A stretch of DNA of 45,249 bases from Ruminiclostridium sp. (GTDB taxonomy: Bacteria > Bacillota > Clostridia > Oscillospirales > Ruminococcaceae), in NCBI GenBank assembly GCA_017625405.1, contig JAGALB010000041.1, forward strand, positions 1-45,249, given 5' to 3'. A model generated the notes under the pieces. It was not told the origin of the DNA, made no database searches, and worked only from the letters and a program-made list of their open reading frames with translations. Of this stretch, positions 9,824 to 21,878 are shown in pieces (within the stretch, counting starts at the first letter, position 1; every line of letters begins with the position of its first letter). The position numbers and the translations under genes are program-made.

Positions 9824-10990
9824 TTATTTTCCAAGTCTGTATTTGAAATCCTCGTATCCGAAGCGTGCAAGAAGTTCAAAACTGCCGTCTTTTCTTAATA
9901 CCCATATATCAGGCAATGGCATACCGTTGAAGGTATTATTCTTACAGGTTGAATAAATGGCCATATCTTCAAAGATCAGACCATCACCGTCTGCAAGTTG
10001 TCTGTCAAAGCTATAATCACCGATAATATCGCCGGCAAGGCATGTGGGGCCACCAAGACGATATGTATATTTTTTTTCTTCAGGTAAACCGGAATTATAA
10101 AGAGGCGGGCGATAAGGCATTTCTATGACATCAGGAGTGTGGCAGGCTGCTGACATATCCGTAATGGCGATATTTGTATCGCCGTTTTTTATTGTATCAA
10201 GCACCTTTGTGTAAAGATAACCTGCATTGAGTGCAACCGCTTCGCCAGGCTCAAGGTATACCTGAATACCATATTTGTCCTGAATACTTGTAATGCACTT
10301 TTCAAGGCGGTCTATATCATAATCCTGACGGGTTATATGATGTCCGCCGCCCATATTGAGCCATTTGATTTTATGGAGCATAAACCCGAACTTTTCCTCA
10401 ACAGCTGCGAGTGTCGCTTCAAGTGCATCTGAATTCTGCTCACATAACGTGTGGAAATGAAGTCCGTCAAGCATCTCAACAAACTCATCGTTCATAAGTT
10501 CATTCCATTGTGAAATAGTTGTACCAAGTCGGCTGCCATCAGCACATGGATCGTATATTTCGTGCGCGTCCTGCGTGGAAAATTCGGGGTTTATCCGAAG
10601 ACCTATTTGTTTACCAGCCAGTTTAGCTTTCATGCCGAATTTTTTCAGCTGTGACGGACTGTTAAACACGATGTGACCTGCATATTTAAGCAGTTCATCA
10701 AATTCCTGCTCCTTATATGCGGCACAGAAAACATGACATTCCTTATCAGGCATTTCCTCCGCTCCAAGTCTTGCTTCAAACAGGCCGCTTGCTTCTGTAC
10801 CTGCAAGATACGGTGCAATAACAGGGTACATGTTGAAATTTGAAAAAGCCTTCTGAGCAAGAAGAATTTTACAGCCTGTTCTGTCTTGTATATCTTTAAG
10901 AATTTTTCCGTTTTCAATCAGTTTTGCCTCATCAAGTATATAGCAGGGAGTTGGCAGCTCCGATTCGAGTATTTTAGTATATGTGTTCAA
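9824..10990 (-). CDS. nspC: Carboxynorspermidine/carboxyspermidine decarboxylase
   Basis: 388 residues; a PLP-dependent fold-III (alanine-racemase-like) decarboxylase that removes CO2 from carboxy(nor)spermidine to give (nor)spermidine. The PLP lysine is in LLAQKAF near residue 47. Other landmarks are SGLFEARLG, GLHFHTLCEQ, LNMGGGHHI, the YLEPGEA phosphate-binding motif, and the partner-subunit active-site segment GGPTCLAGD. It is the last gene of the polyamine operon, 12 bases after the dehydrogenase gene, whose product supplies its substrate. A related enzyme in cyanobacteria decarboxylates carboxyaminopropylagmatine, so the natural substrate could include that compound. Confidence 0.93.
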   Translation of the reverse strand: MNTYTKILESELPTPCYILDEAKLIENGKILKDIQDRTGCKILLAQKAFSNFNMYPVIAPYLAGTEASGLFEARLGAEEMPDKECHVFCAAYKEQEFDELLKYAGHIVFNSPSQLKKFGMKAKLAGKQIGLRINPEFSTQDAHEIYDPCADGSRLGTTISQWNELMNDEFVEMLDGLHFHTLCEQNSDALEATLAAVEEKFGFMLHKIKWLNMGGGHHITRQDYDIDRLEKCITSIQDKYGIQVYLEPGEAVALNAGYLYTKVLDTIKNGDTNIAITDMSAACHTPDVIEMPYRPPLYNSGLPEEKKYTYRLGGPTCLAGDIIGDYSFDRQLADGDGLIFEDMAIYSTCKNNTFNGMPLPDIWVLRKDGSFELLARFGYEDFKYRLGK

Positions 10991-11002: not shown

Positions 11003-12262
11003 TTAATCAACCAGTACAGGTTCAAAGCTTTCCTTATGGGGAAGACCGTACTTTCCGAGTGCTTCAATATAAGGATCGGGATCAAATTCTTCCACAGTGT
11101 ATACGCCCGCCTTGTTCCATTTTCCTGTAAGCAGCATCATAGCGCCGCACATTGCAGGAACGCCTGTTGTGTAGGAAATCGCCTGTGAGCCAACTTCCTT
11201 GTAGCATTCCTCATGGTCACATACGTTGTAGATATAGTATGTCTTGTCCTTGCCGTCCTTTTTACCTGTAAAGATGCAACCGATGTTTGTTTTACCCTTG
11301 GTACGTGGACCGAGGGTTGCAGGGTCGGGGAGGAGAGTCTTTAAAAACTGGATAGGCACAATTTCGTGTCCTTCGTGAACAACAGGGGTTGTGGAAAGCA
11401 TACCTACATTTTCAAGACACTTCATATGTGTAAGATAGCTCTGACCAAATGTCATAAAGAATCTGATACGCTTGACATCAGGAATTGTTTTGGCGAGAGA
11501 TTCAATTTCCTCATGGTGGAGAAGATACATATCCTTATCGCCGACTTCATCGAAATTGTATTCTCTCTTTATGCTCATAGCGGGGATTTCAACCCATCTG
11601 CCGTTTTCCCAGTAGCTTCCGGGAGCGGAAACTTCACGAAGGTTGATTTCGGGGTTGAAGTTCGTTGCAAAGGGATATCCATGGTCGCCGCCGTTGCAGT
11701 CGAGAATATCAATTGTGTCAATTGTGTCAAAATGATGCTTAAGGGCATATGCGCAGTATGCCTGTGTAACACCGGGGTCAAAACCTGAGCCGAGGAGAGC
11801 GGTAAGACCTGCTTTTTCAAACTTCTCCTTGTAAGCCCACTGCCATGAATAGTCAAAATAAGCTGAAAATCCTTCTTCCTTACAACGCTTTTCGTATATT
11901 TCGCGCCATTCGGGGTCATCGATGTTTTCAGGCTCATAGTTAGCTGTATCCATATAGTTTACGCCGCAAGCAAGACAAGCGTCCATAATAGTAAGATCCT
12001 GATAGGGAAGGGCAATATTCATTACAAGCTCAGGCTTGTAGCTGTTGATAAGTTCAATAACTTCGTCAACATTGTCTGCGTTTACCTGTGCTGTTGTAAT
12101 CTTTGTTGCGGTTTTGCCGTTAAGCTTTTCGGCAAGTGCGTCACACTTGGACTTGGTTCTGCTGGCAATGCAGATTTCTGTAAATACATCACTTGCCTGA
12201 CAGCACTTCTGAATTGCTACGGAAGCAACACCACCGCAGCCGATAATTAAAACTCTGCTCAT
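11003..12262 (-). CDS. Carboxynorspermidine/carboxyspermidine dehydrogenase (saccharopine dehydrogenase family)
   Basis: 419 residues. NADPH-dependent enzyme that condenses L-aspartate semialdehyde with a diamine (putrescine or diaminopropane) to give carboxyspermidine or carboxynorspermidine. It belongs to the Lys1/saccharopine dehydrogenase family: the N-terminal Rossmann motif is VLIIGCGGVASVAIQKC, and the later segments MDTANYEP, GSGFDPGVTQAYCAYA and the glycine-rich CGAMMLLTGKW match this family. It lies directly after speB with the stop and start adjoining, and before nspC. The diamine specificity (putrescine versus agmatine) cannot be told from sequence. Confidence 0.92.
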   Translation of the reverse strand: MSRVLIIGCGGVASVAIQKCCQASDVFTEICIASRTKSKCDALAEKLNGKTATKITTAQVNADNVDEVIELINSYKPELVMNIALPYQDLTIMDACLACGVNYMDTANYEPENIDDPEWREIYEKRCKEEGFSAYFDYSWQWAYKEKFEKAGLTALLGSGFDPGVTQAYCAYALKHHFDTIDTIDILDCNGGDHGYPFATNFNPEINLREVSAPGSYWENGRWVEIPAMSIKREYNFDEVGDKDMYLLHHEEIESLAKTIPDVKRIRFFMTFGQSYLTHMKCLENVGMLSTTPVVHEGHEIVPIQFLKTLLPDPATLGPRTKGKTNIGCIFTGKKDGKDKTYYIYNVCDHEECYKEVGSQAISYTTGVPAMCGAMMLLTGKWNKAGVYTVEEFDPDPYIEALGKYGLPHKESFEPVLVD

Positions 12263-13132
12263 TTATTTTCTTTCCTTTCTGTTTTTAAGAATTGCTAAAA
12301 TTAACTCTCTTGCTGTTTTACATGCAATTGCTGTACTTGCTCCGCTATGGTCAAGATTGGGTGCAAGCTCGTTTATATCTGCTCCCACAACATTGCCTTT
12401 GCATACAGTTTCTATTGCATACATCATTTCGTGAAAGCTGATTCCGCCGGCTTCAGGTGTGCCTGTTCCGCAGAAATATGCGGGATCAAAGCAGTCCAGG
12501 TCAATTGTGAAATAAATCGGTGTATTTCCGATTTTTTTAATTACATCCTCCAGGTTATCAAGCCTGAACTTGTGCATATCTGTATGTTCAGCCGCAAAAC
12601 GGAATTCTTCACGGTCGCCGCTTCTGATACAGAACTGATGTATTTTTCCGTCCCCGATAATATCGTGACATCTGCGTATTACACATGCATGGCTGAGCTT
12701 TGCTCCCAGATAATCGTCACGCAGATCTGCATGTGCATCAAGATGGATAATATGCACGTCAGGATATTTTCGTTGTACAGCACGGAATGAACCGAGTGTA
12801 ACCAGATGTTCACCGCCTATAAGAAGGGGGAATTTATTGTCCTTCAGAATAGTTTCAGCTCTTTCTTCTATGTCTGCTAATGCTGCTTCTGCAGAACCGA
12901 AGCAGAGCTCCAGATCTCCGCTATCGAAAATATTATAGTCTGTTAAATCTTCATCCTGATAAGGACTGTAGGTTTCAATTCCGAAGCTTTCGTGCCTTAT
13001 AGCAGACGGACCGAAGCGTGCTCCGGGACGGTAGCTTGTTGTACTGTCAAAGGGAGCACCGAAAATAACCATTTCTGCAGTTTCATAATCGGAGTCGCAA
13101 CCGATAAAGTTTTCTACATTACGTTCAAGCAT
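12263..13132 (-). CDS. speB: Agmatinase (agmatine ureohydrolase)
   Basis: 289 residues; dimanganese ureohydrolase that converts agmatine to putrescine and urea. All metal motifs are visible: GGEH (near residue 100), DAHADLRDD, and DLDCFDPAYFCGTGTPEAGG here split as DLDCFDP and GTGTPEAGG. The N-terminal FDSTTSYRPGARFGP is the usual substrate-loop segment of agmatinases. The ATG overlaps the speE stop in a TAATG arrangement, showing translational coupling. In the carboxyaminopropylagmatine route known from cyanobacteria, a homologous ureohydrolase acts on aminopropylagmatine instead, so substrate assignment is probable rather than certain. Confidence 0.93.
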   Translation of the reverse strand: MLERNVENFIGCDSDYETAEMVIFGAPFDSTTSYRPGARFGPSAIRHESFGIETYSPYQDEDLTDYNIFDSGDLELCFGSAEAALADIEERAETILKDNKFPLLIGGEHLVTLGSFRAVQRKYPDVHIIHLDAHADLRDDYLGAKLSHACVIRRCHDIIGDGKIHQFCIRSGDREEFRFAAEHTDMHKFRLDNLEDVIKKIGNTPIYFTIDLDCFDPAYFCGTGTPEAGGISFHEMMYAIETVCKGNVVGADINELAPNLDHSGASTAIACKTARELILAILKNRKERK

Positions 13133-13983
13133 TATTCTACCTCCTCAAGCATTTCTTCAAGAAAGGCGGGCAGATAGAAAGCGCCCTTATGAAGTCGTGT
13201 CGTATAATATTTTGTACGAAGATGCTGCTTGTTCCAGCTTTCGGCATCAAGATCGTCAATAGGATGATATTTTTTACTTGCAAAGCCAAATAGCCAGTAT
13301 CCTGCCGCATAGGTAGGGATGTGTGCCTGATATACACGGCATATGGGGAAGGTGTTTGCAATTCGCTTGTGGCTTCTTTGCATAGCGTCAGCATCCTGTT
13401 TATAGAACGGACTACCTTGCTGATTTACCATAATACCATCCTCTTTGAGGGATTTATAGCAATTTCCGTAGAATTCCTTTGTGAATAATCCTTCCGAAGG
13501 GCCGTAAGGGTCATTAGAGTCGACAATAATAAGGTCATATTCACATTCTCTGTAACGAATGAATTTAAGTGCATTCTCATAATGTATATGAACACGCTCA
13601 TCATCAAGCTGACAGGCGTTTCCCGGGAGATACTGTCGGCACGCCTCTACTACCATTTCATCCATTTCTACAATATCAATGTGGCTTATTCTTTCATATC
13701 TTGTAAGCTCTTTTACTACGCCACCATCGCCTGCGCCGATTACAAGAACCTTGCGGATGTTCTGGTGCACTGCCATGGGAACATGAACAATCATTTCGTT
13801 ATATATGAAAGCATCACGCTCAGTTAGCATTATATTTCCGTCAAGTGAAAGTACACGACCGAATTCACAGCTCTCAAAAATATCAATGCGCTGATAATCG
13901 CTTGTTTTGGAAAAAAGCTGTTTTTCAATACGAAGGCTAAGCTTTACATCAGGTGTATGCTTTTCGCTGAACCATAAATCCAT
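13132..13983 (-). CDS. speE: Polyamine aminopropyltransferase (spermidine synthase)
   Basis: 283 residues. SpeE transfers the aminopropyl group of decarboxylated SAM to putrescine. Recognisable segments are the N-terminal LWFSEKHTPDVKLSLRIE split here as LWFSEKHTPD, the tetramer/beta motif DGNIMLTERDAFIYNEM, the nucleotide motif VIGAGDGGVVKEL (G-A-G-D-G-G instead of GGGDGG), and the catalytic DSNDPYGPSEGLF. It is the second gene of the operon. No speD (SAM decarboxylase) gene is present in the window, so the donor must come from elsewhere or the enzyme has another role. The start ATG at 13983 follows GAAAGGAAGC. Confidence 0.93.
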   Translation of the reverse strand: MDLWFSEKHTPDVKLSLRIEKQLFSKTSDYQRIDIFESCEFGRVLSLDGNIMLTERDAFIYNEMIVHVPMAVHQNIRKVLVIGAGDGGVVKELTRYERISHIDIVEMDEMVVEACRQYLPGNACQLDDERVHIHYENALKFIRYRECEYDLIIVDSNDPYGPSEGLFTKEFYGNCYKSLKEDGIMVNQQGSPFYKQDADAMQRSHKRIANTFPICRVYQAHIPTYAAGYWLFGFASKKYHPIDDLDAESWNKQHLRTKYYTTRLHKGAFYLPAFLEEMLEEVE

Positions 13984-13998
13984 TTTATGCTTCCTTTC

Positions 13999-15453
13999 TT
14001 ATTCAAGTACGTTGAGGTATTCAATTTCAGGGTCTTCAGGACCGGTCATGCTGCAACCTTTCTCTTTTGCATAAGCAATATAGTCAAGAATATCCTTTGT
14101 AATACGTTCGCCAGGAGCCAGAATCGGAATTCCGGGAGGGTAGCACATTACAAATTCGCTACAAACTCTGCCTTCAGTTTTCATAATAGGCATACTGACT
14201 TTTTCTGCATAGAAGGATTCCTGAGGACTTGCGACCACCTGAGGGGGAATATATTCCTGCGTCAGCATACCGGTTTTGTCACGTTGGTGAAGTCTGCGGA
14301 TTTCTGCCAGTGCACTTACAAGGCGCTCAACCTCCTGTATGCGGTCACCGATTGAAAGATAAGCCAGAATGTTACCGATATCACCGAACTCAATCTGAAT
14401 ATCATAATCATCACGCAGAAGATCATATACTTCGATTCCTGCAAGACCGATATCAAGTGTATGTACACTGAGTTTTATAGGATCAAAATCAAAAATAGAA
14501 TCACCGTTTATCATTTCGGGTCCGAAAGCGTAATATCCGCCTATTGCGTTGATTTCGCCTCTTGCATATTCCGCAATGCGTCTTACATGACCAAAAATCT
14601 CCTCGCCACGGAGTGCAAGGTTTCTTCTTGAAATATCAAGGCTGCTCATAAGCAGGTAACTTCCTGAAGTGGTCTGTGTGAGGTTGATGATCTGGCGAAC
14701 ATATCCTGCATTAACATTCGGTCCTGCCAGCAGAAAACTGGACTGTGTAAGGCTTCCTCCGCTTTTGTGCATGGATACGGATGCCATATCAGCGCCTGCT
14801 GCCATAGCAGAAACAGGCAAATCCTTACCAAAATAGAAATGCGTTCCATGCGCTTCATCTGCAAGGCAAAGCATACCGTGCTCGTGCGCCATTCTGACAA
14901 TTTCACGAAGATCTGAACAGACACCGTAATATGTAGGATTGTTTACAAGAATAGCAACTGCGTCGGGATGCTCTTCAATTGCTTTCTGTACCTGTTCACG
15001 CTTCATTCCGAGAGAAATACCCAATCTGTGATCTACCTCGGGGTTTACATATACAGGCACCGCACCGCAAAGGATAAGTGCGTTGATAACGCTTCTGTGT
15101 ACATTACGGGGGAGAATAATCTTATCGCCTCGTTTACATGCTGTAAGCACCATACTCTGTACAGAACTGGTCGTTCCGCCTACCATGAGGAAGGCTTCTG
15201 CGGCGCCGAATGCTTCCGCTGCCAGCATTTCCGCTTCACGAATAACCGAAACGGGATGACAGAGATTATCGAGAGGTTTCATGCTGTTTACGTCTACGGA
15301 AACGCACTGCTGACCCAGGAAGTCGGTAAGCTCAGGGTTTCCACGGCCGCGCTTATGTCCTGGTACGTCGAAAGGAACAACACGCATCTGCCTGAATTGC
15401 TCAAGTGCTGCATGAATAGGGGCTTTATTCTGGTCGAGAGGGATACGATTCAT
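13999..15453 (-). CDS. speA: Arginine decarboxylase, Orn/Lys/Arg decarboxylase class I fold
   Basis: 484 residues, matching Bacillus-type SpeA. It is a PLP enzyme that converts arginine to agmatine, the first step of the operon's pathway. Evidence: the N-terminal FDVPGHKRGRG, MVGGTTSSVQSM, LADEAHGTHF, and the PLP-lysine motif SMHKSGGSLTQSS with Lys near residue 230. The substrate is inferred to be arginine because speB (agmatinase) follows; lysine or ornithine decarboxylases share the fold. The start is ATG 15453, with AAGGAG directly upstream and in phase with the family N-terminus. The frame stays open upstream to 15528, but that stretch is the leader terminator. It lies directly downstream of the structured leader. 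Confidence 0.92.
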   Translation of the reverse strand: MNRIPLDQNKAPIHAALEQFRQMRVVPFDVPGHKRGRGNPELTDFLGQQCVSVDVNSMKPLDNLCHPVSVIREAEMLAAEAFGAAEAFLMVGGTTSSVQSMVLTACKRGDKIILPRNVHRSVINALILCGAVPVYVNPEVDHRLGISLGMKREQVQKAIEEHPDAVAILVNNPTYYGVCSDLREIVRMAHEHGMLCLADEAHGTHFYFGKDLPVSAMAAGADMASVSMHKSGGSLTQSSFLLAGPNVNAGYVRQIINLTQTTSGSYLLMSSLDISRRNLALRGEEIFGHVRRIAEYARGEINAIGGYYAFGPEMINGDSIFDFDPIKLSVHTLDIGLAGIEVYDLLRDDYDIQIEFGDIGNILAYLSIGDRIQEVERLVSALAEIRRLHQRDKTGMLTQEYIPPQVVASPQESFYAEKVSMPIMKTEGRVCSEFVMCYPPGIPILAPGERITKDILDYIAYAKEKGCSMTGPEDPEIEYLNVLE

Positions 15454-15825
15454 TGATTTCTCCTTAAAATAAAAAACAAGCTGTACACAAGTACAGCTTG
15501 TAAATCGCAAAAACTGAAAATACTCCACGGAGCATTACATAAAAATGCAATAATTCAGTAGGGATTCGGAATTATCAGAGTCTATATAGCAATCACTTTT
15601 ACTACTCTTATTGACCGTTTCACAAGTCTGCACAAGGCATATTTCGGTTATGAAGTAACCAACTTATAAAATTTGAGCTTTTAACTCAATCAATAAGGCG
15701 GTATAATCCGCCGATCGGCAGTGGACCCGGCTGTCCGTATGGCCTTAACCCCACAGGGTGGTCCTATAATTGCTTGGAAAGGCTCTAATCCTCCCAAATG
15801 CTTTAGCGCAGTTAAACGCTAACAT
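15454..15825 (-). ncRNA. Long structured leader RNA of the polyamine operon (possible attenuator or riboswitch-like RNA, or separate ncRNA)
   Basis: Minus-strand transcript of about 370 nt between a consensus promoter and the speA start. Hairpins readable by eye (plus-strand coordinates): 15798-15825, at the very 5' end (9 paired bases with a 2-base bulge); 15774-15797; 15723-15764 (GGACC/GGTCC stem enclosing ACCC/GGGT); 15697-15712 (GGCGG/CCGCC); 15673-15689; 15646-15660 (GGTTA/TAACC); and the terminator 15477-15500. The 5' 180 nt (about 15650-15825) are dense in short GC stems, unlike ordinary leaders. Segment 15622-15633 can pair with the 5' arm of the terminator, an antiterminator candidate. 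No known riboswitch core (SAM, lysine, guanidine, T-box, cobalamin, glycine) was recognised. The length would suit raiA-type or another large clostridial RNA, but the family is unassigned. Confidence 0.7.
15477..15500 (-). terminator. Intrinsic terminator in the speA leader
   Basis: A perfect 10-bp stem (arm CAAGCTGTAC) with a 4-base loop, followed on the minus strand by TTTTTTATTTT and directly by the AAGGAG of speA. Its position between the leader RNA and the first gene is typical of an attenuator. Confidence 0.85.
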
Positions 15826-15831
15826 GGTGAT

Positions 15832-15860
15832 ATTATAGATTATTTTTGTGATAATGTCAA
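15832..15860 (-). promoter_or_regulatory. Consensus SigA promoter of the polyamine operon/leader RNA
   Basis: On the minus strand, -35 TTGACA (15855-15860), exactly 17 nt, -10 TATAAT (15832-15837): a perfect consensus. Transcription should start near 15825, at the base of the first leader hairpin. Unusually strong for a biosynthetic operon. Confidence 0.92.
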
Positions 15861-15926
15861 TAGTTTTTTTGAAAAAATCTGATGAATTGAAAAAAATTAT
15901 TTATTATGATAAAATTTTAATAGTTT

Positions 15927-15953
15927 TGTAACAATTTTTGACTTTTAGTTGTC
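15927..15953 (+). promoter_or_regulatory. Candidate ECF-type autoregulatory promoter
   Basis: TGTAAC (15927-15932), 17 nt, TGTC (15950-15953), resembling the AAC/CGTC boxes of ECF sigma promoters. It sits about 21 bases before the AAGGAG of the sigma gene. Inference from pattern only. Confidence 0.4.
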
Positions 15954-15987
15954 TTTTAATTGAAAGCGCTTTTAAGGAGTGAGAAAA

Positions 15988-16470
15988 TTGACTGAAAATG
16001 AATTTGAGAGCTACATAGCCCTGTATCGAAAAAATATATATCGTCTTGCTTTCAGTTATGTAAAGAACAACGAAGACGCAGAGGATATTTCACAGGAAGC
16101 ATTTCTTAAGCTGTATAAATGCGAGGAAGTGTTTGATTCTCCTGAAAATGTCAGGGCATGGCTCATTCGTGTAACAATCAATCTCTCTAAGAATTTATTG
16201 AAAAACTTCTGGCGGCAGCGACGAAGTGAGCTGTCTTATGAAATTTCTGTATATAGCGCCAGAGAAGAAGCGGTGGTTGAATTTTTAAGAAGATTAAAAC
16301 CAAAATATGCAGTTGTCCTGCATCTTTTTTATTACGAGGACTATTCAACGGATGAAATTGCTTCTATTCTCGGTTTATCGTCAGGAACAGTAAGGACAAG
16401 ACTTGTACGTGCACGCCGTCAGCTGAAGGAAATGCTCTTGAAGGAGGGTTATAATGAAAAAGGAATATAA
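15988..16470 (+). CDS. ECF-type RNA polymerase sigma factor
   Basis: 160 residues with region 2 (YRLAFSYVKNNEDAEDISQEAFLKLY) and region 4 (YYEDYSTDEIASILGLSSGTVRTRLVRAR) readable in parts: NNEDAEDISQEAF and SSGTVRTRLVRAR. ECF factors direct RNA polymerase to stress or envelope promoters. The start is taken as TTG 15988, 8 bases after AAGGAG; the GTG at 15979 overlaps that site. The gene overlaps the following DUF4179 gene by 17 bases, a usual sigma/anti-sigma arrangement. The target regulon may include itself through the candidate promoter just upstream. Confidence 0.92.
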   Translation: MTENEFESYIALYRKNIYRLAFSYVKNNEDAEDISQEAFLKLYKCEEVFDSPENVRAWLIRVTINLSKNLLKNFWRQRRSELSYEISVYSAREEAVVEFLRRLKPKYAVVLHLFYYEDYSTDEIASILGLSSGTVRTRLVRARRQLKEMLLKEGYNEKGI

Positions 16471-17536
16471 TGAACTTTTTAACCGAATATCTCCGCAGAG
16501 CAGTAATGAGGAGTTTCTTTCACAGATACTCAGAAAGGCGGAAAAAGTGGAGAAAAAGAACAAAATTAGTATAAAAAAGCCTGTTATTGCTGTGTTTGCA
16601 GCTGTATTGGCACTTACTACAGCTACCGTAACAGTTGGAGCAGCTACAGGCTGGGATTTCAACGGCGGATTTGATGCTGTTTTCAAGAACAGAACAGAAC
16701 AATATTCATCAGAGCATCAGGCTTATGAAACAGGTTTTGATTTTGCAAAATACGGTAAGGAGCTTGACCAGCACTATATATTCGATGATTACACTCTTAA
16801 TATCTATGGTGTAATAGCGGATAAAAGTACAGCTTATGTAATGTATGATGTTGTTTTTGATGAGGATTTTGACTACAAAGAAAAAAAGAATTATACAGAA
16901 TGGGACATGAAAGCTATTCTGGAAACAGCTGATTCAGCGATGACTACTAATGATGGAAACCTTATAGCGGTTGATGGGAATCGATTTACATTCTATAAGA
17001 TGGCAACAAGCGGAAAAGAGAACATTAATCTTGTAGGAAATACGCTTATCTTTAATCTTTACAGACTTGAACGTGGTATTGAAAATAGTGTTGAAAGTGA
17101 TGAACTGTATTCTGAATCGCAAATTGTTGATTGCGGTATTACTGTTGAGATACCGGTAGATTTTCCTATTTATAGTCCTGTAACTTATTCATTTTCAGGT
17201 GATAGCAATACGTTTTATCTTATAGATTACGCTGGTGGTAAAGAATTTTATGTTGAAGCGATGCTTGAAAAAATAGAAATCTCGCCATTAAGCTGTGAAT
17301 TTTCGTTTATGACTGATATCGGAGAAAGATGGGCAGAAAAGGGTGATTGCTATTCACTTGGTGATTTTGTTATAACTTATAATGATGGCACAGAAATAGT
17401 TTTCACGAATAACTCATATTCTATAGATGTTGATGAAACAGGAAGACAGCGTTATCACATACATCTTAATCAGCCTATTGATCCTGACAGAATAAGTTCA
17501 GTTACTGTAGGCGGTACAACAATTGCAATTGTATAA
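16454..17536 (+). CDS. DUF4179-type membrane protein, putative anti-sigma factor
   Basis: 360 residues. A short cytoplasmic N-terminus (about 38 residues, helix-forming) precedes one membrane segment (residues about 40-62, VIAVFAAVLALTTATVTVGA) and a large extracellular part of about 295 residues beginning ATGWDF. This matches DUF4179 proteins that follow ECF sigma genes in clostridia and are thought to bind the sigma factor and sense the outside. It overlaps the sigma gene, so they are translationally coupled. There is no zinc-binding HxxxCxxC motif, so it is not a ZAS-type anti-sigma factor. The signal sensed is unknown. Confidence 0.8.
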   Translation: MKKEYNELFNRISPQSSNEEFLSQILRKAEKVEKKNKISIKKPVIAVFAAVLALTTATVTVGAATGWDFNGGFDAVFKNRTEQYSSEHQAYETGFDFAKYGKELDQHYIFDDYTLNIYGVIADKSTAYVMYDVVFDEDFDYKEKKNYTEWDMKAILETADSAMTTNDGNLIAVDGNRFTFYKMATSGKENINLVGNTLIFNLYRLERGIENSVESDELYSESQIVDCGITVEIPVDFPIYSPVTYSFSGDSNTFYLIDYAGGKEFYVEAMLEKIEISPLSCEFSFMTDIGERWAEKGDCYSLGDFVITYNDGTEIVFTNNSYSIDVDETGRQRYHIHLNQPIDPDRISSVTVGGTTIAIV

Positions 17537-20021: not shown

Positions 20022-20465
20022 ATGAAACTTACAGAAAAAGAATACAGTTATTTAACAAAAAAGATCTCACCTGATACCAAATACTATAAAACTTTGCCAA
20101 CGGCATTTATTATCGGAGGGCTTATTTGTTGTATAGGGCAGGCAATAGGCGATTTATATAAATATTTAGGCATTAATGAAACAGATACAGGTACTCTTAC
20201 ATCAATAACACTTGTGTTTTTAAGTGCTTTCCTTACAGGTGCAGGAATATATGGGCGAATTGCAAAATCGGCAGGTGCAGGAACACTTGTACCGATAACG
20301 GGCTTTGCTAATGCAGTTGTTTCGCCTGCGCTTGAATTCAAAACAGAGGGCTACATTCTAGGTGTGGGTGCCAAGATATTTATAATAGCAGGTCCCGTAA
20401 TCGTATATGGATTGGCAGCATCGGTAATTTATGGGGTAATTCTGTATATTACACAACTATTCTGA
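20022..20465 (+). CDS. spoVAC: Stage V sporulation protein AC
   Basis: 147 residues with about four membrane segments. SpoVAC is a mechanosensitive-like channel component of the SpoVA complex that moves dipicolinic acid (as Ca-DPA) into the forespore and out during germination. Family landmarks are the N-terminal LTEKEYSYLTKKISP, IGGLICCIGQAIGDLY, FLSAFLTGAGIYGRIAKSAGAGTLVPITGFANAVVSPA (split as GIYGRIAKSAGAG and GFANAVVSPA). GAGGAG lies 9-14 bases before the ATG. No SigG consensus is visible upstream. First of three spoVA genes. Confidence 0.94.
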   Translation: MKLTEKEYSYLTKKISPDTKYYKTLPTAFIIGGLICCIGQAIGDLYKYLGINETDTGTLTSITLVFLSAFLTGAGIYGRIAKSAGAGTLVPITGFANAVVSPALEFKTEGYILGVGAKIFIIAGPVIVYGLAASVIYGVILYITQLF

Positions 20466-20474
20466 GGTGAAAAT

Positions 20475-21485
20475 ATGAGTGAATATCTGAATGAAGGAAC
20501 AATAATTCTGACAACAGAACCGTCTGTGTATTCATACGCAGCTGCCGGCGGAAAAATGGAAGGCGACGGACCGCTGGGAAGCTGCTTTGATTACATCAGT
20601 CAGGAATCAGATTTCGGCGAATCAACCTGGGAAAAATCAGAAAGCAGATTGCAGCAGCTTGCATTTTCGCATGCGCTTTCAAAAGGCGGAATATCAGAAG
20701 GTGAGTTAAGTTTTATTTTTGCAGGAGATCTGCAAAATCAATGCACAGGCTCTGCTTACGGAATCAGAGATACAGGAATACCCTTTATCGGGCTGTACGG
20801 CGCATGTTCAACTATGGCGGAAAGTCTGGTACTGGCAAGTATTTTTGTTGATAATAATGCAGCTGAATATTGCGCTGCACTGACATCATCACATTTCTGT
20901 TCGGCTGAGAGACAATTCCGCTTTCCCGAAACCTATGGCGGACAGCGCACGCCTACGGCACAGTGGACAGTAACTGGAAGCGGATGTGCAATAGTCGGAA
21001 AACACAACAATCCTCCCTATATAAAGGGTGTGACAATAGGGAAAATTGTCGATCTGGGTATTAAGGATGCCAATAACATGGGAGCAGCCATGGCGCCTGC
21101 CGCTTATGAGACAATAAAATCGTATCTGAAGGTACAGAAAAAAACAGTAAATGATTTTGATCTGATACTTACAGGGGATTTAGGCTCTGTGGGTTCTGAA
21201 ATACTGTATGAGTTATTCCGCAAGGACGGTGTAGATATTTCAACGGTTCATAATGATTGCGGATTAATGATATACGATTTTGAAAAACAGGATGTTCACG
21301 CCGGAGGTTCAGGTTGCGGTTGCAGTGCTTCGGTGCTCTGCGGCCACATACTTGAACGTGTAAAAAAGGGTGAGCTTAAAAATGTGCTGTTTGCGGCAAC
21401 AGGGGCGCTTATGTCTACAACAGTAGTTCAGCAGGGAGAAAGTATACCTGGAATTTCTCATGCTGTTCATATTTCCTGCGAGTAG
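20475..21485 (+). CDS. spoVAD: Stage V sporulation protein AD
   Basis: 336 residues. SpoVAD has a thiolase-like fold and binds dipicolinate for transport in the SpoVA complex. Recognisable points: the thiolase-like LQNQCTGSAYGIRDTGIPFIGLYGACSTMAESL region (split as GIPFIGLYGACSTM), TGSGCAIVG, and the conserved GGSGCGCSASVLCGH near the C-terminus. It starts 9 bases after spoVAC with GAGGTGA, so the genes are cotranscribed. Confidence 0.95.
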   Translation: MSEYLNEGTIILTTEPSVYSYAAAGGKMEGDGPLGSCFDYISQESDFGESTWEKSESRLQQLAFSHALSKGGISEGELSFIFAGDLQNQCTGSAYGIRDTGIPFIGLYGACSTMAESLVLASIFVDNNAAEYCAALTSSHFCSAERQFRFPETYGGQRTPTAQWTVTGSGCAIVGKHNNPPYIKGVTIGKIVDLGIKDANNMGAAMAPAAYETIKSYLKVQKKTVNDFDLILTGDLGSVGSEILYELFRKDGVDISTVHNDCGLMIYDFEKQDVHAGGSGCGCSASVLCGHILERVKKGELKNVLFAATGALMSTTVVQQGESIPGISHAVHISCE

Positions 21486-21500
21486 AGAACGGAGTTTGTT

Positions 21501-21878
21501 ATGGAAATTTTTATGGAATATCTGAAAACCTTTCTTATCGGCGGCCTGTTTTGCCTGATAGGACAACTGCTGATTGATTTTACAAAGCTTACTCCTGCAA
21601 GAATACTTGTATCGTATGTGGTTGCAGGTGTAATTATGGGCGCAATCGGCTGGTATGAGCCTATTACAGATTTTGCAGGGGCAGGGGCTACGGTTCCTCT
21701 CACGGGATTTGGTTATCTGCTTTCAAAAGGAGTAAAGCAAGCGGTTATGGAAAAAGGATTACTCGGCGCTTTTACAGGTGGTCTTGAAGCGAGTGCAGGC
21801 GGTATAACCGCAGCTGTTATTGCGGGTCTTATTGTAGCATTACTGTTTAAAAGAGGAGACAAAACAAAGCAGATGTAA
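21501..21878 (+). CDS. spoVAE: Stage V sporulation protein AE (SpoVAEb type)
   Basis: 125 residues with three to four membrane segments; part of the SpoVA channel. Landmarks: FLIGGLFCLIGQLLIDFTKLTPARILVSYV in parts (GLFCLIGQLLID, TKLTPARILV), and GAGATVPLTGFGYLLSKG. Third gene of the minimal clostridial set AC-AD-AE. spoVAA, AB and AF are not present here. A terminator follows immediately. Confidence 0.94.
   Translation: MEIFMEYLKTFLIGGLFCLIGQLLIDFTKLTPARILVSYVVAGVIMGAIGWYEPITDFAGAGATVPLTGFGYLLSKGVKQAVMEKGLLGAFTGGLEASAGGITAAVIAGLIVALLFKRGDKTKQM

Follow-up and report, generated by a model that had tools for sequence, protein, structure and literature searches.

A conserved structured leader RNA containing the Rfam SpF59 element precedes polyamine genes in Bacillota and is a candidate polyamine-responsive termination switch

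Polyamines are abundant in cells. In the literature that we searched, the sole class of polyamine riboswitch is rare and derived from SAM-I, and the accessible part of its description presents it as an off switch with the four-stem SAM-I fold, represented by 13 examples, with the authors expecting more such RNAs (Salvail et al. 2023, PMC10853860). An ABC-leader precedes potABCD in two gammaproteobacteria, Haemophilus somnus and Pasteurella multocida, according to the available text of PMC2965389. Also relevant is the pneumococcal RNA F59 (SN20, srn235), located between SP0915 and SP0916. In the accessible portions of the sources, a transposon screen gives srn235 a lung fitness of 0.05 (PMC3395615), a review includes F59/srn235 among the lung-related RNAs (PMC4387999), and a 2025 survey places srn235/F59/Spd_sr49 at 869478-869804, as a conserved candidate of 327 nt (PMC12323649). 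Here, we describe a leader of about 360 nt upstream of a polyamine operon in a 45,249-nt contig of Ruminiclostridium sp. (the whole stretch analyzed, referred to as the window) and compare it with its homologs and with these systems.

The leader and operon of the window

The features of the locus are listed in Table 1. A perfect SigA promoter had been claimed upstream of the leader in the initial annotation, and the predicted site at 15860-15832 was indeed the single perfect one in a promoter scan of 12000-16500, which returned 11 promoter-like sites versus 10.0 expected. The description of a large structured leader also held, as 367 nt folded to -112.3 kcal/mol versus a mean of -87.1 for dinucleotide shuffles (z = -4.9, with 0 of 100 shuffles as low). 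A 10-bp perfect terminator had been placed ahead of the speA ribosome site; the terminator and its place are right, but the stem has 11 pairs. An AAGGAG ribosome site follows the terminator tail, ahead of the speA ATG at 15453. Divergent to the leader, and sharing its intergenic region, we observed by eye an ECF-sigma-like gene with a membrane-protein gene after it (15979-17536), and farther away (20022-21878) there are three genes that by eye resemble spoVAC, spoVAD, and spoVAE.

The rival pairing proposed between 15622-15633 and the 5' arm of the terminator could be reproduced, with the RNA at 15633-15622 (GUGCAGACUUGU) and the arm at 15501-15491 (ACAAGCUGUAC) forming 11 pairs, including one G-U and leaving one bulged A, at -12.2 kcal/mol as a free duplex. 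The locus has the predicted mutually exclusive structures of a riboswitch expression platform. In folds of the window, whose energies ignore pseudoknots, the core helices plus terminator reached -108.3 kcal/mol, the antiterminator state reached -96.8, and the unconstrained minimum reached -111.5, so that enforcing the core helices costs 3.2 kcal/mol over the minimum-energy fold, which counts against the reading that we favor below.

The initial annotation recognized no known riboswitch class and suggested a search with Infernal against Rfam. This search (cmscan, whole window) gave one family at gathering, RF02440, and the earlier statement needs correcting accordingly, as a 54-nt piece of the leader corresponds to this family: the match spans 50 nt and model positions 1 to 54 of 54 and scores over the curated cutoff. 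For the rest of Rfam, at E values up to 1, the 15400-15900 region gave just four subthreshold matches (freshwater-2, ncr952, AaHKsRNA41, and GNAS-AS1_3) and no T-box match. On 20 homologous loci, Rfam reported RF02440 18 times and other families 0 times, with two loci (L014 and L156) unmatched. The link to pneumococcus is based on the Rfam match together with the papers cited above; SP0916, which we take to be the lysine decarboxylase gene, agrees with the Rfam label ldcC RNA.

Table 1. Features of the leader and of the operon behind it, in window coordinates
Feature	Position	Strand	Basis or remark
Predicted promoter TTGACA-17-TATAAT	15832..15860	-	12/12 consensus letters
Predicted transcript start	near 15825	-	inferred from promoter spacing
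5' hairpin of leader	15803..15822	-	minimum-energy fold; conservation not seen
P0 5' strand AGCAAUUAU, partner 15588-15596	15766..15774	-	duplex permutation test and column count
RF02440 match (SpF59 sRNA, ldcC RNA): P1, P2, P3, UGCCGA element	15715..15764	-	67.9 bits, cutoff 37.2
P1 5' strand GGACC, partner 15723-15727 GGUCC	15760..15764	-	outer pair U-A 32, G-C 20, C-G 3 of 58
Hairpin P2	15748..15759	-	4/4 pairs double-changed; 88.9% of cells paired
Probable pseudoknot, CGGAC with GCCG at 15716-15719	15733..15737	-	invariant, 58/58
Hairpin P3 GGC/GCC, loop CAUACGGACA	15729..15744	-	100% paired; one pair double-changed
Hairpin P4	15697..15712	-	6/6 pairs double-changed
P5 5' strand UUAUUGAU, partner 15608-15615 GUCAAUAA	15689..15696	-	96.1% paired; almost no variation
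Hairpin P6, first base common with P5 end	15673..15689	-	5/6 pairs double-changed
P7 5' strand UUUUAUAAGUU, partner 15618-15627 ACUUGUGAAA	15661..15671	-	98.3% paired; one-sided changes only
Hairpin P8	15646..15660	-	3/5 pairs double-changed
Antiterminator strand GUGCAGACUUGU	15622..15633	-	end of P9 plus 3' strand of P7
3' domain GAGUAGUAAAAGUGAUUGCUAUAUAGACUCU: P10a GAGU/ACUC and P0 3' strand 15588-15596	15577..15607	-	alignment and duplex tests
Terminator hairpin, 11 bp	15476..15501	-	-16.6 kcal/mol; directly before speA ribosome site
U-rich terminator tail, UUUUUUAUUUU after stem	15466..15476	-	sequence
speA/ldcC-like Orn/Lys/Arg decarboxylase gene	13999..15453	-	PF01276, 228.1 bits
speE, spermidine synthase	13132..13983	-	above cutoff
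speB, agmatinase	12263..13132	-	above cutoff
Carboxynorspermidine-synthase-like gene	11003..12262	-	405.8 bits, under curated cutoff of 800
nspC, carboxynorspermidine decarboxylase	9824..10990	-	above cutoff

The conserved core and the genes behind it

Homologs of the leader are alike over about 190 to 200 nt around the RF02440 matches, and in the window the conserved core including its closing helix occupies 15774-15577 on the reverse strand. As judged from this comparison, the 54-nt RF02440 model is a fragment of a larger RNA, covering roughly a quarter of the conserved length. A model of 198 positions built from the core alignment (R1) found one copy in the genome of the window (200 bits) and matched in 24 genomes out of 398 for the phylum and 31 out of 71 for the genus; RF02440 itself (E up to 0.001) was detected in 15/60 genus, 38/148 family, and 18/398 phylum genomes, and a pattern scan of named genomes gave at least 119 stretches. 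Among the matches listed, most were clostridial metagenome-assembled genomes, together with Bacillus, Neobacillus, Paenibacillus, Lactococcus, Acidaminococcus, and Phascolarctobacterium and with one spirochaete and one Synergistaceae metagenome-assembled genome. The viral contigs scanned with the 5' and 3' patterns contained 0 stretches. We retained 178 loci with 172 distinct 145-nt cores, a few of them from identical or almost identical genomes, leaving out a chance pattern match in Sphingomonas (L171) and a locus for which the locating pattern failed (L032).

The RNA common to these homologs would be closed by a long-range helix and have about ten helices and a probable pseudoknot within its 190 to 200 nt. 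In an alignment of 58 main-type loci (A1; 188 to 214 nt, <90% identity), 93.9% of the 3753 cells of the ten helices and the pseudoknot pair, and 25 of the 66 pairs have changed on both sides versus 12.3 in shuffles, with pairing dropping to 31 to 44% when the partner was moved by 1 to 3 columns. Conservation and covariation of the stems in relatives, which the initial annotation had put forward as a check, are thus both present. This evidence is not spread evenly over the helices, as P5, P7, and P10a vary very little and so are barely tested by covariation, P9 is weak in this alignment (57 to 70% paired), and the invariance of the CGGAC/GCCG pseudoknot means that covariation neither backs nor counters it. 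An inner hairpin, P10b (AGUAAA/UUUGCU), which was part of R1 as first built, was rejected: it had 0 double-changed pairs, 25 of 58 sequences cannot form its last pair, and its UUGCU strand fits P0 instead, so we keep it just as a possible rival state. Outside the helices, 14 of 66 unpaired consensus positions are invariant at the level of ≥97%.

The closing helix P0 joins the segment directly 5' of P1 (AGCAAUUAU) to the 3' domain, to which it is complementary in the window (GUGAUUGCU). Over 107 distinct loci of 132, the matched duplexes were stronger than permuted ones (z = -12.6, 0/5000; reversed control, z = -0.9), and they remained so inside gene classes (z = -8.6) and for 10 dissimilar loci (z = -3.8, 4/10000). 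By column count, 86.2% of the cells pair (78.8% in shuffles, 27 to 53% when slid), and there are 26 doubly changed cells versus 8.0 in shuffles, with the doubly changed pairs being just 2, no more than chance. In eight divergent loci, the 5' strand of P0 is relocated between P2 and P3 and still pairs over 9 to 11 bp. These leaders, with the strand moved inside the 5' domain, are L224-L227 and L229-L232, and three genomes among them have two small membrane-protein-like genes or similar between the RNA and a speA gene about 2.9 kb on. Because P0 crosses GAGU/ACUC, the 3' domain would contain a pseudoknot of its own. A pattern for this domain was found in 15 of 398 phylum genomes, always within an R1 match, and the reversed pattern gave 0 matches.

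The RNA is linked nearly exclusively to genes of polyamine synthesis and uptake. Downstream DNA was readable in 170 loci, and in 167 of these the RNA leads into speA, speD, potA, or carboxynorspermidine synthase genes. Counting the first searched gene within 1.3 kb in all 178 loci gave speA in 57, speD in 57, carboxynorspermidine synthase in 25, potA in 28, and none in 3, with the DNA ending too soon in 8. With NCBIfam, representatives scored over the cutoff for adenosylmethionine decarboxylase (415.9 bits) and the PotA-type ATPase (567.4 bits) and below it for the PotD-like protein (172.4 bits) and carboxynorspermidine synthase (418.5 bits). In L132, counted as potA, a gene for a P-II-like nitrogen regulator separates the RNA from potA (about 190 to 1730 nt past the core). 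One weak match, in Holdemania (L065, 40.3 bits), is followed by a gene unlike the polyamine ones. L014 had been a candidate for a leader lacking a polyamine gene and was dropped, since a speA gene follows in its genome (G028), on the same strand and about 2.9 kb away. The DNA of L180 stops at 444 nt. Within the genus, speA was present in 52 of 60 genomes. R1 matched in 26 of these 60, and in each of the 26 the RNA is followed, at a distance of up to about 2.9 kb, by a speA gene on its own contig and strand; for the remaining 26 of the 52 speA genomes there was no detectable RNA, which there would be optional or too divergent. A conserved structured core ahead of functionally linked genes, as in riboswitches, is therefore what the homologs display.

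Either end of the leader can be missing, which, like the lack of detectable RNA in 26 speA genomes, counts against the reading favored below. Five loci (L196, L201, L203, L204, and L233) are without the CGGACAG-type 5' domain and keep the 3' core before speA or speD, and in L228, also before one of these genes, the CGGACAG-type core is by eye seemingly absent. Conversely, leaders of a clade within the genus (L004-L013 and L015) are without P0 and the 3' domain and precede speA; L014 is of another type. This clade is without the TGCTATATAG string, and in 10/10 loci examined the -10 box sits 6 to 7 nt before P1, so the predicted transcript would begin at P1; the 5' strand of P0 is also gone. Of the four loci used for comparison, two (L001 and L002) contain the string, with the promoter at a distance, and two (L074 and L104) are without the exact string and without that promoter position. 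In this clade, the promoter appears to have moved in such a way that the predicted start still falls at the first helix, suggesting that promoter and RNA changed together. The ends may be dispensable, or they may sense different things. As a speculative extension, which we put forward tentatively, the leader could represent a new structural class of polyamine riboswitch with a modular build, in which the pseudoknotted domain at the 5' end, the switch helix in the middle, and the P0-closed pseudoknot at the 3' end are separable and lineages have dropped either end and kept the gene link. One leader might then integrate two inputs, e.g., spermidine plus another polyamine or a precursor, into one decision at the terminator.

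Terminator choice, candidate signal, and alternatives

Across loci, the 5' arm of the terminator covaries with the antiterminator strand that would hold it open. For 141 distinct loci (from 152 whose terminator lies at most 260 nt away; some terminator was present in 156 of the 178), the duplex of a leader with its own terminator averaged -12.03 kcal/mol versus -10.22 with the terminators of others (z = -9.9, 0/5000 permutations), and the effect persisted within gene classes (z = -8.8) and in 17 dissimilar loci (z = -3.8, 1/10000). Control segments gave z values of -2.6 (3' arm), -3.4 (reversed strand), +2.9 (CGGACAG segment), 0.0 (P10 segment), and -0.4 (P8 segment), and the first two indicate that relatedness makes up part of the signal. 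The match is an average effect: just 2 of 141 leaders fit their own terminator best of all, and 100 of the 141 fit it better than the median of their row; for the leader of the window, 23 foreign terminators score better than its own. The test kept a few mispicked terminators (e.g., that of L120). When terminators were defined strictly, one was found no more than 150 nt from the gene in 99 of 167 loci, versus 14 of 501 shuffled regions. The proposal that the leader is a cis-acting attenuator is supported by the conserved and covarying stems, the covarying leader-terminator pairing, and the position of the RNA before polyamine genes in many Bacillota, and we regard a cis-acting attenuator with a terminator/antiterminator choice as well supported by these comparisons.

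As to what the switch responds to, we think it rather probable that the leader is a cis-acting, riboswitch-like termination switch that shuts down polyamine synthesis and uptake when a polyamine, presumably spermidine, is plentiful. The conserved pseudoknotted RNA of about 190 to 200 nt would fold first. A signal favoring the core fold would keep P7 closed, so that the terminator forms and transcription stops before speA; with the signal absent, the P9/P7 3' strand would pair with the 5' arm of the terminator, and the operon would be read. If the ligand favors the core, plenty of ligand means stop. Spermidine has two routes, one through speD/speE and the other through carboxynorspermidine synthase and nspC, and it is the common product or cargo of these genes and of potABCD. 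SAM and MTA are foreign to the carboxynorspermidine route and to uptake, and pathway knowledge therefore makes spermidine the best guess. In this reading, we infer a polyamine signal, most likely spermidine, to which the RNA would bind directly and which would thereby repress the genes.

The same anatomy and gene links would be expected if the attenuator were real and an RNA-binding protein, perhaps together with a polyamine, decided termination instead of a small molecule alone, and sequence cannot separate these two readings. Protein-bound attenuators usually need less conserved structure than 190 to 200 nt, and the size of the core and its invariant unpaired letters exceed this usual need, for which we consider a protein sensor unlikely. 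A translation-coupled attenuator with a leader peptide, of the speF type, would find its reading frame in a TTG-started frame of at least 8 codons, whose start falls in a single alignment column for 49 of 58 sequences, or in a 26-codon AUG frame that in the window starts, by eye, at about the predicted transcript start. The common frame, however, overlies nearly invariant helix strands, has a TTG start with no evident ribosome site, and includes P6, which varies by paired changes; 172 of the 174 frames of the core contain a stop, and the 26-codon frame sits in a part of the leader not seen to be conserved. We consider a leader peptide very improbable.

The leader could also be an independent trans-acting small RNA ending at the terminator, with the operon expressed via read-through only. 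Rfam types the homolog as a small RNA, and in the accessible text of the screen, pneumococcal F59/srn235 was detected as one, with the lung fitness of 0.05. This detection is not decisive, because a prematurely ended leader would look identical, and a transposon insertion in the leader also affects the genes behind it. An RNA acting on its own would require neither the position before polyamine genes in 167 of 170 readable loci nor the covarying antiterminator, and we hold this alternative to be quite improbable, even if the ended leader may have a second role in trans. The termination switch sensing a polyamine directly is thus the reading that we carry into the comparison with described RNAs.

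Comparison with known systems

The SAM-I-variant spermidine riboswitch resembles the leader in part, as in its available description it likewise precedes ldcC, speE, and speB with a terminator/antiterminator choice, but its conserved letters and helix order differ from those of the leader of the window (PMC10853860). Consistent with this difference, the 15400-15900 region gave no SAM-family match at E up to 1, and there was likewise none at gathering for the whole window or the 20 homologous loci, so the leader does not have a recognizable SAM-I aptamer. The odc1 and potE motifs, the former with a pseudoknot, are likewise structured RNAs located ahead of polyamine-linked genes, and the accessible text describes them with other genes; it is by description that we set them apart (PMC8632094). 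By description as well, the ABC-leader resembles ours in being a predicted terminator/antiterminator leader before potABCD (PMC2965389, available part). A motif like this one was not found by term in the accessible text of PMC11109978, PMC8632094, PMC6429828, PMC2864571, and PMC7266159, and our search of the literature, with most subscription papers, supplements, and preprints outside its reach, found no description of the RNA as a leader or riboswitch; one may possibly exist elsewhere.

RF02440/SpF59 is related by sequence, as the start of the core matches its full 54-position model. Unlike the leader described here, it is typed in Rfam as a small RNA, and its entry is without a switch, a terminator, or a regulon. 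If our reading is right, a pneumococcal small RNA screened as a virulence RNA would be recast as the leader of a polyamine gene. Next to the SAM-I-derived class, the leader may be a candidate for a second natural class of polyamine sensor made of RNA, and a strongly conserved RNA located ahead of genes for synthesis as well as uptake (in 24 of the 398 phylum genomes sampled) would make such a second class directly testable.
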